In this document: piece after piece, positions 2,764 to 8,450 of the stretch | Layout: each line of letters starts with the position of its first letter | Numbering within the stretch: the stretch's first letter is position 1 | From: Verrucomicrobia bacterium TMED44 | Lineage (GTDB): Bacteria; Verrucomicrobiota; Verrucomicrobiia; Opitutales; Seribacteraceae | NCBI GenBank assembly: GCA_002168015.1 | Contig: NHCX01000002.1 | Location: 1-8,526, forward strand | Length of the DNA: 8,526 nucleotides | Reading direction: 5' to 3' | Program-made: the position numbers and the translations under genes | The notes under the pieces: generated by a model | Seen by the model: the letters and a program-made list of their open reading frames with translations, nothing else | What the model was told of the DNA's origin: nothing | Database searches by the model: none

Positions 2764-2794
2764 AAAAAACCCCCCTGTTGACTCTATTCAACAG
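2764..2794 (-). terminator. Terminator-like hairpin fused to a glmS-tail copy; perhaps the ancestral glmS terminator
   Basis: Read on the minus strand, a perfect 7-bp stem CTGTTGA/TCAACAG with loop ATAGAG is followed by five G and six T. The stem includes the GTT-GAA-TAG codons of the glmS-tail copy in junction A. This is the layout expected of a glmS gene whose terminator hairpin starts at the stop codon. The G run between stem and T-run makes it atypical, so termination efficiency is uncertain. Confidence 0.45.
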
Positions 2795-2825
2795 TCACTG
2801 AGTGTTTTCGAGTGACGAATAAATT
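2774..2825 (-). repeat. Junction A: glmS-tail copy, left end of the array
   Basis: Core 2784-2801 reads TCA-GTG-ACT-GTT-GAA-TAG on the minus strand, S-V-T-V-E-stop. Its right arm contains GTGACGAAT, matching inverted GTGACGAAT at the left of junction B, so the two bound the DUF3784 cassette. Its left side carries the terminator-like hairpin rather than a cassette arm, which suggests the original downstream flank of glmS. Confidence 0.8.
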
Positions 2826-2836
2826 TATTATAAAAT

Positions 2837-3175
2837 TTAAGATATTTTTCTTCCATGCCTATTCTTTAAATATAACCTTGTAAACCAAACAAATGGGAGC
2901 AATTGTAAGAGAGACCAAATCAATATCAACTGCTCTCCTTCAAATAATATATACATTAAACCAAAACTTAATGGTGGATATAGGGATAATTTTTTAAAAA
3001 AAGGATTAAGAAATTCTAAGTATTTCTCAATATTAAATTTTTGTCTTTGTTCAGGTGTCATAGTGTTATAACCAGCAAGCAAGTATTTGGCATTATCTTT
3101 GTTAATACCAAAACCTATTAATAAATAAATTAACGACATAAAAATTATAGTAAAAATTAAAATGGGGGACTCCAT
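2837..3175 (-). CDS. DUF3784-family small membrane protein (cassette 6)
   Basis: This 112-aa integral membrane protein has a first hydrophobic segment at about 4-24, a loop with GYNTMTPEQRQKFN (35-48), and two more hydrophobic segments at about 65-79 and 82-99. The hallmark G-Y/W-N-T-M motif followed by a charged stretch, together with the size and three-helix layout, fits DUF3784, whose function is unknown. The ATG is preceded at 8 bp by GAGGTGA, an excellent ribosome binding site that is itself part of the left arm of junction B, so the cassette end supplies the translation signal. It is the only gene of the cassette farthest from glmS and reads in the glmS direction. No promoter of its own is evident. 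Confidence 0.75.
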   Translation of the reverse strand: MESPILIFTIIFMSLIYLLIGFGINKDNAKYLLAGYNTMTPEQRQKFNIEKYLEFLNPFFKKLSLYPPLSFGLMYILFEGEQLILIWSLLQLLPFVWFTRLYLKNRHGRKIS

Positions 3176-3231
3176 TTAATTCGTCACCTCATTATTCCAC
3201 AGTAACGGAGTAAATTTGAACGACAATTTAC
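3174..3231 (-). repeat. Junction B: glmS-tail copy between cassettes 6 and 5
   Basis: Core 3192-3209 reads TCC-GTT-ACT-GTG-GAA-TAA on the minus strand (S-V-T-V-E-stop). The left arm holds ATTCGTCAC, pairing with junction A. The right arm holds TTTGAACGACAATT, which is inverted exactly at the left of junction C. The core is identical to that of junction E except for the stop codon (TAA versus TAG). Confidence 0.88.
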
Positions 3232-3272
3232 TTTCCACTATTTCTGCGGTATTTGAAAGGGTTGGGGTTGGA

Positions 3273-3303
3273 TTGCATGAATTACTCATCATTAATCTAT
3301 TAT
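3273..3303 (+). promoter_or_regulatory. Possible promoter of the EEP-fold nuclease gene
   Basis: TTGCAT (3273-3278) and TATTAT (3298-3303) are separated by 19 bp, a little long. The gene reads against glmS, so it must have a promoter of its own, and this is the best pair seen between junction B and the ATG. Weak call. Confidence 0.25.
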
Positions 3304-3340
3304 ATTCCAAAGTCATCACTATGAGAGTTAATATAGTCTT

Positions 3341-4162
3341 ATGAAGATAATCACATGGAATCTTAATTCTAGAACCAATTTGGAAACATTAAATAATCAG
3401 TGTAATTATCTAAAAAGCCAGAACTTGGATGTCATTACTCTTCAAGAAGTCACTCTAAATTCTCAGGATTTTTTTAAGGATTATTTTGAAAATTGGAATA
3501 TATTAAGTTCATTTGATTTTGTCAGTGATAAATCTGTATTAGTAAAAAAACGAAAATATGGGCAATTAATAATATCAAAAAACCCCATAACCCCCATTGA
3601 ACCTGTAAGTTCTATGCCATTCCCAGAAAGGTTATTGTCAGGTCATATAAAAAATAAAAATATTGAGATACACACCACCCATGTCCCTCCCGGTTCTTCT
3701 AATGGAGTAATTAAAGTTCAGCATTTTGAAAAACTCTATGAATTTCTTGCAAACAGAAAAGACGTTCAAAAAATCTTAACTGGTGATTTTAATTCTCCAA
3801 AACTTGAACGTGAAACTGGTGAGATCATTACATGGGGTCAAAAAGTCTCATCGTCTGGGAAGGTTAGAATTGCTGTTAACCCTAAATGGAAGAATGAGTG
3901 TTCTGGAGAGAGATGGGATTCAGCAGAAAGGAGTATTATTCAAAATCATAAAGACTTGGGTTTGGTAGATATCTTTAGAGAAAAAAATGGGTATGTAGAT
4001 AATTCAGGAAGTTGGTTCACAAATAAGGGTATTGCTAGGAGATATGATCATGTATTTGGACCAAAAAATATATCTATCTTAGAGTCTTATTATGATCAAA
4101 AACCAAGAGAACAAAAGTATAGCGATCACTCTCCTTTGGTCGCTGAGTTCAATATTCTTTGA
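3341..4162 (+). CDS. Endonuclease/exonuclease/phosphatase (EEP) fold enzyme (cassette 5)
   Basis: This 273-aa protein belongs to the EEP superfamily, metal-dependent phosphodiesterases that include exonuclease III and DNase I. All signature residues are visible in order: N7 (TWNLN), E36 (LQEV), H114 (HTTHVPPG), D149 and N151 (TGDFNSP), D236-H237 (RRYDHVF) and the closing D262-H263 (SDHSPLV). There is no signal peptide, so it should act in the cytoplasm, probably as a nuclease; the substrate cannot be told. It reads against glmS and converges with the DUF6994 gene, and the 3' ends overlap by 37 bp. No clear Shine-Dalgarno sequence precedes the ATG. Pairing with an unknown protein in one mobile cassette suggests a defence or toxin-type role (inference). 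Confidence 0.85.
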   Translation: MKIITWNLNSRTNLETLNNQCNYLKSQNLDVITLQEVTLNSQDFFKDYFENWNILSSFDFVSDKSVLVKKRKYGQLIISKNPITPIEPVSSMPFPERLLSGHIKNKNIEIHTTHVPPGSSNGVIKVQHFEKLYEFLANRKDVQKILTGDFNSPKLERETGEIITWGQKVSSSGKVRIAVNPKWKNECSGERWDSAERSIIQNHKDLGLVDIFREKNGYVDNSGSWFTNKGIARRYDHVFGPKNISILESYYDQKPREQKYSDHSPLVAEFNIL

Positions 4163-7498: not shown

Positions 7499-7538
7499 TT
7501 TTCTCCTATCATAAAAATATTGAAGCTTAAAATTTTTA

Positions 7539-7596
7539 CCGAATACGAATTTAAAACTATTCCACAGTAACGGAGTATTTTGGAACAGTGAATAAG
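7539..7596 (-). repeat. Junction E: glmS-tail copy between cassettes 3 and 2
   Basis: Core 7557-7574 reads TCC-GTT-ACT-GTG-GAA-TAG on the minus strand (S-V-T-V-E-stop). The left arm CCGAATACGAAT is the inverted partner of junction D. The right arm GGAACAGTGAATAAG is the inverted partner of junction F. Confidence 0.88.
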
Positions 7597-7603
7597 ATTT
7601 GCT

Positions 7604-8005
7604 TCATTCAATAGTGAAACAATTCCCATAATACGCCGAATCCATAATAGTTTGCTTTATTCTCAAATCAAGATATTTTTCTTTGAGCAATTCTGGAACA
7701 TTAAAATTATATGTTTGAACAGAAGTCACCAACTTATTATTTTTCTTAAAGAGATAAGCTTGTATTTCTTTATCTTCAAGAACCCTTTCGCCATATATGT
7801 AACTATCTGTTTCTGACTTTATCTCAATAGAGTACATCGCTGAATCAGCATAGCTAACAAATACATCAATTTTTGAGTCTTTGGCTTGATATAAAAAATT
7901 ACCATACAGTGTGTCACAACTTATATTTCTCTCAGCAAATACCTCTATAGGTAGAAGTAAAAAAAATATCATCAAACTTTTCAATTTTTTGATATTTTTA
8001 TTCAC
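7604..8005 (-). CDS. Small secreted protein with two cysteines (cassette 2)
   Basis: 133-aa protein with a clear Sec signal peptide: basic N-terminus (MNKNIKKLK), hydrophobic core LMIFFLLLP, predicted cleavage after V-F-A (24). The mature part of about 109 aa is beta-rich and has just two cysteines, C30 near its start and C129 near its end, which could form a disulfide in the periplasm. No family is recognised. The start is GTG at 8005, inside the right-hand half-site of the cassette end (AACAGTGAATAA), with GGAG of the glmS-tail copy 12 bp upstream. No other start keeps the signal peptide. Its layout parallels the 119-aa protein of the next cassette. Confidence 0.75.
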   Translation of the reverse strand: MNKNIKKLKSLMIFFLLLPIEVFAERNISCDTLYGNFLYQAKDSKIDVFVSYADSAMYSIEIKSETDSYIYGERVLEDKEIQAYLFKKNNKLVTSVQTYNFNVPELLKEKYLDLRIKQTIMDSAYYGNCFTIE

Positions 8006-8054
8006 TGTTCTGAATTACTCCACATTCACTGAATAAGTTTAAACAGTGATTTAA
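7999..8054 (-). repeat. Junction F: glmS-tail copy between cassettes 2 and 1
   Basis: Core 8015-8032 reads TCA-GTG-AAT-GTG-GAG-TAA on the minus strand (S-V-N-V-E-stop). It is the clearest palindrome of the set: 8003-8048 starts CACTGTT and ends AACAGTG, with TTACTC and GAATAA in the inner arms. The left arm pairs with junction E. The right arm pairs with junction G over 24 bp with one mismatch. Confidence 0.88.
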
Positions 8055-8069
8055 TATAATCATTATTTC

Positions 8070-8429
8070 TTACTCTACTATACACTTTCCTTTTACAACC
8101 GGATCATCAATAACTTCAATGGTTGATTCCGTTAAACTCCATTGGTATGTAAGACTTTTTTTATCTAATACAAAAACTTCCATATAAAAGTTAGAGTTAG
8201 TTCCATAATCAGTTAAAACTAGATAACTTTTATCTTCAAAGAATATTTCCCATGGTTTCTGTTTTGGATACATTAAATCTTTAAATTTATTTTCATCTTC
8301 TATTCTTTCGATTCTGAAAAGCATTGCCTCATCATCTACAATGAAAGGACATGAATATATTTCCGCAACTGTATTTGAAGAAAAAATAAATAAAACTACT
8401 AAAATTTGCTTTTTTAAATCACTGTTCAA
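8070..8429 (-). CDS. Small secreted protein with two cysteines, next to glmS (cassette 1)
   Basis: 119-aa protein with a Sec signal peptide: MNSDLKKQ, hydrophobic ILVVLFIFSS, predicted cleavage after T-V-A (22). The mature part of about 97 aa is beta-strand rich. It has only C27 (YSCPF) and C116 (GKCIVE), the same N- and C-terminal cysteine layout as the 133-aa protein, so the two may be distant relatives. The only usable start is TTG at 8429, two bases after the glmS stop codon. GGTG in the last glmS codons lies at ribosome-binding distance, so translation is probably coupled to glmS. Function unknown; a periplasmic inhibitor or immunity-like protein is possible but unproven. Confidence 0.72.
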   Translation of the reverse strand: MNSDLKKQILVVLFIFSSNTVAEIYSCPFIVDDEAMLFRIERIEDENKFKDLMYPKQKPWEIFFEDKSYLVLTDYGTNSNFYMEVFVLDKKSLTYQWSLTESTIEVIDDPVVKGKCIVE

Positions 8430-8450
8430 ACTTATTCCACCGTGACTGAC
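8414..8450 (-). repeat. Junction G: authentic glmS 3' end and entry point of the array
   Basis: Core 8432-8449 is the real glmS end, TCA-GTC-ACG-GTG-GAA-TAA on the minus strand. The left arm TTAAATCACTGTT is the inverted partner of junction F. To the right the sequence is glmS coding DNA, so this is a hybrid site, half gene and half cassette. Confidence 0.88.

Follow-up and report, generated by a model that had tools for sequence, protein, structure and literature searches.

The 8,526-nucleotide stretch of DNA analyzed here (the window; contig NHCX01000002.1 of the Verrucomicrobia bacterium TMED44 assembly GCA_002168015.1) carries on its minus strand the 3' end of glmS, followed by an array of small gene cassettes separated by copies of the last codons of that gene. 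The native glmS end reads GTDIDQPRNLAK-SVTVE-stop and finishes at 8432; it and six further copies of this tail, all on the minus strand, bound six cassettes (Table 1). The six-copy tail pattern matched 6 times in the window and 0 times in 200 dinucleotide shuffles, and the repetition of the tail is thus confirmed to be far above chance. A shorter tail pattern, which misses SVNVE, matched 6 times on this contig (the native end and five copies) and 0 times elsewhere across the 2.35-Mb assembly, with 1 match for the reversed control. The initial annotation, which was made from the letters of the window, had listed seven GlmS-tail junctions, including SITVE and SVNVE variants, and all of them are present; its remark that the copies differ mostly at third codon positions also holds, as 8 of the 18 tail positions vary across the seven tails and 6 of these 8 are third codon positions.

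Between the tails lie eight open reading frames (ORFs), seven of them in the glmS direction; the 231-amino-acid (aa) product of cassette 3 is 34% identical to an array ORF of the PS1 clade. Each of the six cassettes carries inverted terminal arms of its own, for example those of cassette 1. The sixth pair is short and out of register; its pairing was recognized by eye after a shift of the register, and the fixed-register comparison gives only 6/25 for it. Cassette 1, which is proximal to glmS, would by inference be the youngest of the six. Beyond the outermost tail, a G-run and a T-run at 2764-2783 resemble either a terminator or the arm of another cassette. The initial annotation had remarked neither on the cassette-specific arms nor on the window being a whole contig.

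Table 1. Features of the glmS-tail array in the window (for each tail, the higher coordinate of the core is the first Ser base; aa, amino acids).
Feature	Position	Strand	Content or basis
glmS 3' end, native in-use tail	8432..8526; core 8432-8449, AC 8442-8443	-	sequence; TIGR01135 positions 578-607 at 8435-8524
Tail copy SVNVE-stop	8015..8032	-	sequence; AA at the center (8025-8026), seen in 2 of 286 sites
Tail copy SVTVE-stop	7557..7574	-	sequence
Tail copy SITVE-stop	6763..6780	-	sequence
Tail copy SVTVE-stop	5042..5059	-	sequence
Tail copy SVTVE-stop	3192..3209	-	sequence
Outermost tail copy SVTVE-stop	2784..2801	-	sequence; 37 nt (2767-2803) identical in locus L216
Cassette 1 (glmS-proximal)	8026..8442	-	ORF 8070-8429, 119 aa, no Pfam/NCBIfam family; arms 8031-8054 / 8414-8437, 23/24 paired
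Cassette 2	7568..8025	-	ORF 7604-8005, 133 aa, no Pfam/NCBIfam family; arms 7572-7595 / 7998-8021
Cassette 3	6774..7567	-	ORF 6803-7498, 231 aa, no Pfam/NCBIfam family; arms near 6780-6803 / 7538-7561
Cassette 4	5053..6773	-	ORFs 5094-6149 (351 aa, no family) and 6146-6718 (190 aa, DUF1737 just under cut-off); arms 5058-5081 / 6745-6768
Cassette 5	3203..5052	.	DUF6994 ORF 4126-4842 (-) and exonuclease III-like ORF 3341-4162 (+); arms 3208-3228 / 5027-5047
Cassette 6	2795..3202	-	ORF 2837-3175, 112 aa, DUF3784; arms tgacgaattaaat / atttattcgtca by eye, slightly shifted register

The window is the entirety of one contig (C128) in a 132-contig assembly. The last 77 glmS bases before the native tail match the SAR86 single cell AG-325-C22 (locus L132) at 73 of 77 positions. 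In most relatives of the assembly GlmS ends in DKPRNLAKSVTVE (L061 differs, with DQPR); of the 40 glmS loci fetched from these relatives, 39 have a single tail and the remaining one has none by the tail pattern. In the phylum as a whole, the site pattern matched in 2 of 288 genomes, namely this assembly and one other with a single match. Given the SAR86-like glmS end, the single tails of the relatives, and the rarity of the site in the phylum, we reject the contig as part of the assembly's own lineage and read it as DNA that probably belongs to SAR86 and was put in the wrong bin.

When genome contigs were scanned with the site pattern, 34 stretches matched. They comprised 18 from SAR86, 2 from Woeseia/Woeseiaceae, 2 from PS1, 1 from SAR116, 4 from other Alphaproteobacteria, and 3 from other Gammaproteobacteria, with one each from Dehalococcoidia, Gemmatimonadetes, Vicinamibacterales, and Streptococcus oralis. 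The last of these (L109) was excluded by eye, being a lone match with no further signs of a tail; the remaining 33 genomes all matched when the pattern was loosened, the reversed control giving 1 match. The nonproteobacterial array contigs, which come from metagenome-assembled genomes, could be mis-binned, as the window appears to be, although the Gemmatimonadetes stretch has a G+C content of 60% and carries a glmS end of its own. No tRNA genes were found in 25 array regions or in L216, and two site patterns had 0 matches in viral contigs.

In the SAR86 order, one or more extra tails were found in at least 92 of 203 genomes, with no control match among the matches listed. This figure is a lower bound, since 12 of 16 supposedly array-free loci hold further sites at 13/14 (20 such loci were fetched; 4 had no glmS end by the pattern, and 4 of the other 16 had no further site). 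Of the 150 tails listed for the order, 131 lie in the 77 genomes with a glmS position and could be mapped, and 19 could not (2 in G470, where a glmS fragment sits on a separate contig, and 17 without a glmS place). On the glmS strand and downstream of glmS lay 123 of the 131, at a median distance of 1.8 kb and a maximum of 11.6 kb, and none lay upstream. The tail score cut-off of 13/14, like the arm threshold of 14/20 used below, was our choice, and 12-of-14 sites were left out of the arm, crossover, and sharing statistics. Tails that deviate from the pattern number 27 with one mismatch and 12 with two (antisense control, 0 and 2), and 7 of the 27 differ merely by a TGA stop, 4 of these being native glmS ends. 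Two further arrangements were noticed: an inverted tail within an array (L104:6387-6417, in the genome shared with L142), as serine-recombinase inversion could give, and two tail-like sites of 13/14 each lying 24 bp apart (L159 reverse strand, 5551-5593), with no room for a gene.

The cassette comparison covered 75 loci, which together hold 238 extra tails and 212 cassettes, gaps of >4.5 kb being left out. These cassettes range from 0.1 to 4 kb (median, 670 bp; quartiles, 428 and 1251), and a single locus holds up to 11 extra tails. Sixty between-locus pairs of cassettes align over >85% of the longer member, although these pairs overlap, several of them representing one cassette present in more than two loci. 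In 25 of the 28 shared pairs for which both glmS genes were comparable, the cassettes were more alike than the glmS genes; the strongest pair is 99.8% identical over 645/645 bp behind glmS genes that are 78.3% identical. Some near-identical cassettes that end tail to tail, with differing neighbors, sit behind glmS genes that are only 66 to 80% identical. Close relatives place the breakpoints exactly. In L282 and L214, whose glmS ends are 93.4% identical, the first base past the glmS stop of L282 corresponds to the first base past the L214 tail at +5242, such that L214 has 5.2 kb of cassettes between glmS and the older flank. The same exact tail boundary is seen between L279 and L214 (glmS, 96.7%), at +3478, while L289, with 0 extra tails, and L151, with five (glmS, 92.8%), have their outer flank in common except for ~0.1 kb beyond the last tail. 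Since the breakpoints in the two L214 comparisons fall at displaced tails and cassette identity mostly exceeds glmS identity, these alignments show that cassettes move, with newcomers evidently entering between glmS and the older flank at the exact tail boundary. The cassette gain at exact junctions that the initial annotation had proposed to look for in strain comparisons is thereby seen, and the fixed synteny that would have spoken against its array idea is not what the relatives have, given tails in 92 of 203 genomes and cassettes shared beyond glmS likeness.

The tails themselves reveal where the exchange occurs. Among 286 tails, those with the same left neighbor agreed at columns 2 and 5 at frequencies of 0.83 and 0.74 (background, 0.37 and 0.26), and those with the same right neighbor agreed at columns 8, 11, 14, and 17 at frequencies of 0.57, 0.65, 0.84, and 0.77 (background, 0.33, 0.38, 0.53, and 0.49). 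The test comprised 150 right-shared and 200 left-shared tail pairs, in 30 and 28 clusters, and a version with one vote per cluster gave the same result; the pattern was first noticed on 117 tails and then examined on 286. The switch between columns 5 and 8 is the AC at the exact dyad center of the tail, which is present in 281 of the 286 tails.

The arms are organized around the same dinucleotide. The two ends of one cassette agree on average at 11.24 of 20 positions, compared with 7.57 for random cassettes and 7.50 for the two sides of one tail; arms of at least 14/20 occur in 84 of 212 cassettes but in only 4.5% and 4.2% of the two controls. Within a cassette, the agreement extends to about 29 bp from the AC center. 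Hairpin pairing between a tail's two sides was rejected because their agreement is no better than that of random pairs. Inverted half-sites around a central dinucleotide, as read from these alignments, match the layout of a serine recombinase site. A crossover at AC means that only the half from AC on (T-V-E-stop) would ever serve glmS. However, at sites with a perfect right half the left half (TCNGTN) was also perfect in 160 of 186, with 1 site in total in the antisense control. Since the left half is kept although it would never be part of glmS, we infer that the recombinase reads TCNGTNA and is indifferent to the wobble positions. The same observation undercuts the proposal in the initial annotation that the third-position bias points to past selection as working glmS ends. 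Separately, a subset of cassettes has in common a right-end motif resembling tttgacctcgcattctgcgggggttt and, at the left end, one resembling atagtggaga (4997-5025 and 3230-3245 in the window; also L128, L214, and others).

Large serine recombinases (LSRs) consist of a resolvase catalytic domain and then a Recombinase domain, in about 550 to 700 aa. A PF00239 search of the 33 array genomes gave matches in 3, one of which (G359) is at a tail: a 601-aa LSR whose ORF crosses the tail at L148:1867. This first LSR was found via its tail, but in a tail-blind search of the 203 SAR86-order genomes with the G359 protein both of the 2 matches lay beside tails (2/2); they are the LSR at L199 and the end of an LSR at the start of a G344 contig. 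PF00239 and PF07508 both scored above cut-off in L148, L199, and the homologues P0004 and P0036, and the relatives of the L199 LSR in the PDB are YokA and TP901-1. In the four LSR genes seen in their DNA context (G359, G484, G344, and G055), the 3' end lies across the tail or 20 to 40 bp before it. A search of viral contigs with six peptide patterns from one sequence found no LSR relatives.

Two of these genes belong to complete elements at glmS. Behind glmS in L199 is a 6.0-kb element whose 551-aa LSR stops 25 bp before the tail; its first ORF is akin to the C-terminal tail of the LSR P0020 (E value, 1e-6), and it also holds a replication-protein-like ORF (PF23343, 28.7 bits against a cut-off of 27.8). 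The element of G055, a genome from the order of the window's assembly, spans L053:331-7600 and consists of the glmS tail, a helix-turn-helix (HTH)-like region, an HUH-like replication ORF (by eye), an Xer-like tyrosine recombinase that overlaps the start of the LSR, the LSR, and AC-GGTGGAGTAA, which lies 25 bp past the LSR stop. Only the half from AC onward resembles glmS in this element, the left half being without likeness, yet its two arms match each other at 18 of 23 positions, where random pairs average 5.7 and 0 of 5000 did as well.

Among 51 LSR homologues, 32 have the core motif one frame over near the C terminus or end in SVTVE (P0032, P0041, and P0046); the corresponding rates are 3% for shuffled tails and 0.9% for other segments. 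Of these 32, P0035 was scored on a fortuitous match and has its true core farther inside, and the core of P0011 lies outside the scored stretch. In P0001, P0004, P0009, P0010, P0011, P0020, and P0036, the frame continues past the core and enters a second HTH-like region, and two PF07508 stretches were found in the five core-spanning homologues that were scanned. The second HTH-like region also occurs by itself behind glmS or a tail (PF07508 E value of about 4e-6 in three ORFs). Ten matches to this stand-alone C-terminal region lie ≤160 nt after a tail and were followed, the others being farther off, before any tail, or on the opposite strand. Nine of the ten are in the LSR reading frame, 8 of them without a stop all the way from the core to where the translated stretch ends and the ninth open for 62 codons; among the other tails, an open stretch of 60 codons follows 20 of 277. 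In one LSR lineage, then, the attachment core lies inside the LSR gene, although this is not universal: the L199 LSR stops before its tail, and the HTH-like ORF of that element is in another frame. With the core inside the gene, integration would separate the C-terminal domain from the rest, and our guess is that such splitting could work as a latch. Run-through into a tail is also seen among cassette genes, as 3 of 93 glmS-direction cassette ORFs (L132, L136, and L160) continue in frame into the next tail and end in SVTVE.

The cargo of the arrays is varied. Pfam searches of 97 of the 118 array ORFs of ≥60 aa from the 33 loci matched 52 families; the 25 of these that were listed include HNH nucleases, a cytosine methylase, exonuclease-like, HIT, aldo-keto and short-chain reductase families, and several DUFs. 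At an E value of 1e-5, PADLOC matched 84 models among array ORFs, and most of the 25 listed are methylase models with one member each; it gave 0 matches for seven window cassette ORFs, a set without the 119-aa ORF. One array ORF matched PF00145, and one cassette (L144, 8311-10769, reverse strand) has a cytosine-methylase-like ORF (by eye) beside two possible nuclease-partner ORFs. We see the cargo as general adaptive genes plus some defense genes. The glmS direction is taken by 93 of the 112 array ORFs of ≥80 aa.

Taken together, these data make it very probable that small cassettes are inserted serially into the end of glmS by an LSR that crosses over at the AC of TCN-GTN-ACN-GTN-GAR-TAR. A circular cassette with an attachment site of ~58 bp, formed by two inverted arms around AC, would recombine with the glmS end at AC; glmS would receive a new T-V-E-stop half, and the old half would be pushed outward with everything behind it. 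Cassettes that lack an LSR gene would be moved in trans by this LSR family, from an element that is only sometimes present. The exact breakpoints in relatives bear out the serial insertion into the last glmS codons, with the tail restored and the older tail displaced, that the initial annotation had suggested.

Several observations weigh against this proposal. Array genomes with a detectable LSR are few (2 of 203 by the one protein query and 3 of 33 by PF00239), and 19 of the 51 LSR homologues lack the C-terminal motif, including P0026 to P0031 and P0033 at 50 to 53% identity. No circular cassette was seen. Canonical LSRs are not known to target attL or attP-like sites, and insertion into an already occupied tail therefore needs an extra assumption. 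Arms fall below 14/20 in 128 of the 212 cassettes, although some low-arm cassettes contain tails missed by the scan. Three of the 28 shared cassette pairs are less alike than their glmS genes, and the pair statistics rest on overlapping pairs. One of the 131 mapped tails is on the opposite strand, and 7 are on another contig. Lastly, tyrosine-integrase fragments lie about 2.2 kb from array tails in G351 (contig C24).

This last observation, which concerns 1 of the 33 genomes, would fit an integron-like or other tyrosine-recombinase system in which an integrase moves cassettes via attC-like sites at the tails, as would the Xer-like recombinase beside the LSR in L053 and the compact, arrayed, mostly unidirectional cassettes. 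Integrons are indeed built from small gene cassettes arrayed by serial insertion at one site, a likeness that is found here. However, 20 of the 33 array genomes have two or fewer PF00589 matches, 2 of these having none, and the best matches are mostly frames of ~300 aa, the size of XerC/XerD, that come near tails only in G351; no integron-type integrase lies beside the arrays in 32 of the 33 genomes, several array contigs being short. The overlap of tyrosine recombinases is 6 to 8 bp, unlike the central dinucleotide seen here, where crossover is confined to 2 bp at the palindrome center and mismatches are tolerated on either side. The attachment site is split by the insert, with pairing arms at opposite cassette ends, whereas an integron attC stays whole at one end. 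We consider such a system very unlikely, and the "integron-like" machinery named in the initial annotation gives way to an LSR on the geometry and the linked genes.

A somewhat better contender, though still improbable, is that the LSR inserted large elements only and that small cassettes are immobile internal-deletion remnants spread by homologous recombination. LSR genes are rare, and some cassettes begin with a stray C-terminal LSR domain right behind glmS or a tail, as deletion derivatives would. Against this, near-identical small cassettes with differing neighbors and tail-to-tail ends occur at glmS divergences of up to 34%, and in two comparisons small cassettes are seen inserted precisely at tail boundaries. 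Old tandem duplication, fixed synteny, or homologous exchange, with the tails as relics, could account for the deviating tails with one (27) or two (12) mismatches, but close relatives differ in cassette content with breakpoints at the tail, and near-identical cassettes sit behind glmS genes just 66 to 80% identical; we give this explanation hardly any weight. Still less credible is Tn7-like transposition guided to glmS. Tn7 uses the glmS 3' end, the identical target gene, but it inserts downstream and leaves the codons intact, whereas here glmS codons are exchanged and the join lies inside them, at a 2-bp site, not past the stop; no Tn7 gene appears among the 25 of 52 Pfam families listed for the 97 array ORFs, though no directed Tns search was made. 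We rejected the integron and tandem duplication on crossover geometry, genes, or the breakpoints in relatives, and Tn7 on the insertion point.

The claim in the initial annotation that no named system has this structure was too strong, since the staphylococcal cassette chromosome (SCC), including SCCmec, and the Enterococcus cassette chromosome (ECC) are similar in outline, with CcrAB large serine recombinases that act at the 3' end of rlmH. The likenesses are LSRs, attachment in a conserved gene's 3' end, direct end repeats, dyad symmetry in the circular att site, and remnants left at the site (PMC6222049). A regenerated target-gene end and tandem elements, both found here, are a principle shared with SCC rather than membership in it. 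The target here is glmS, not rlmH; NCBIfam Ccr models match L148, L199, and L053 at 38 to 104 bits against cut-offs of 700 to 900, and P0036 not at all. The cassettes are 0.1 to 4 kb, mostly with one or two genes, whereas the element followed in PMC6222049 is about 32 kb, and up to 11 extra tails per locus and marine hosts also set the arrays apart. The glmS system is SCC-like in working principle but is not SCC by enzyme family or target. Of the initial reading, then, serial insertion stands, and the integron-like machinery, the proof of selection, and the absence of a named analogue do not.

The additive islands and tycheposons of Methylophilaceae and Prochlorococcus, as described in the text available from PMC10872708, likewise repeat target 3' ends (the last 20 bp of tRNA-Lys) in streamlined aquatic genomes. 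Their targets are tRNA genes, however, tycheposons use a tyrosine recombinase, and that text describes no cassette-specific arms or serine recombinase (the word "serine" occurs 0 times in it). A literature search, with most subscription journals and bioRxiv preprints outside its scope, found no paper linking glmS tails, SAR86, and a recombinase. New to us are the glmS target, how tiny and how numerous the cassettes are, the spread of the system over marine lineages, and the splitting of the recombinase gene.

A second armed element without a recombinase gene lies in the window, back to back with the glmS array. There the 3' half of tRNA-Phe is repeated (1-48 and 2662-2709) on both sides of a restriction-modification module, which comprises a DUF6997/DUF6996 protein and Dam-like and N6_N4 methylases and has perfect 17-nt inverted arms (104-120 / 2601-2617).

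Ocean bacteria with tiny genomes differ in their genes, and for the entry of such genes the glmS arrays supply one concrete route: the end of glmS as a fixed address, an enzyme family, a site that can be read, and arrivals recorded in layers. With extra tails in 92 of 203 SAR86-order genomes, the sequence alone would suffice to count gene gains. A recombinase that would tolerate wobble changes in a conserved coding target, and likewise a recombinase whose frame spans its own site, could also yield DNA-integration tools. A broader proposal, for which we see the chances as evenly balanced, is that the arrays represent an ocean-wide second cassette system beside the integron: a wobble-tolerant LSR would act in trans and across species, its own gene would be whole only in the circle, with attP inside it, and integration would remove the C-terminal DNA-binding domain as a latch.

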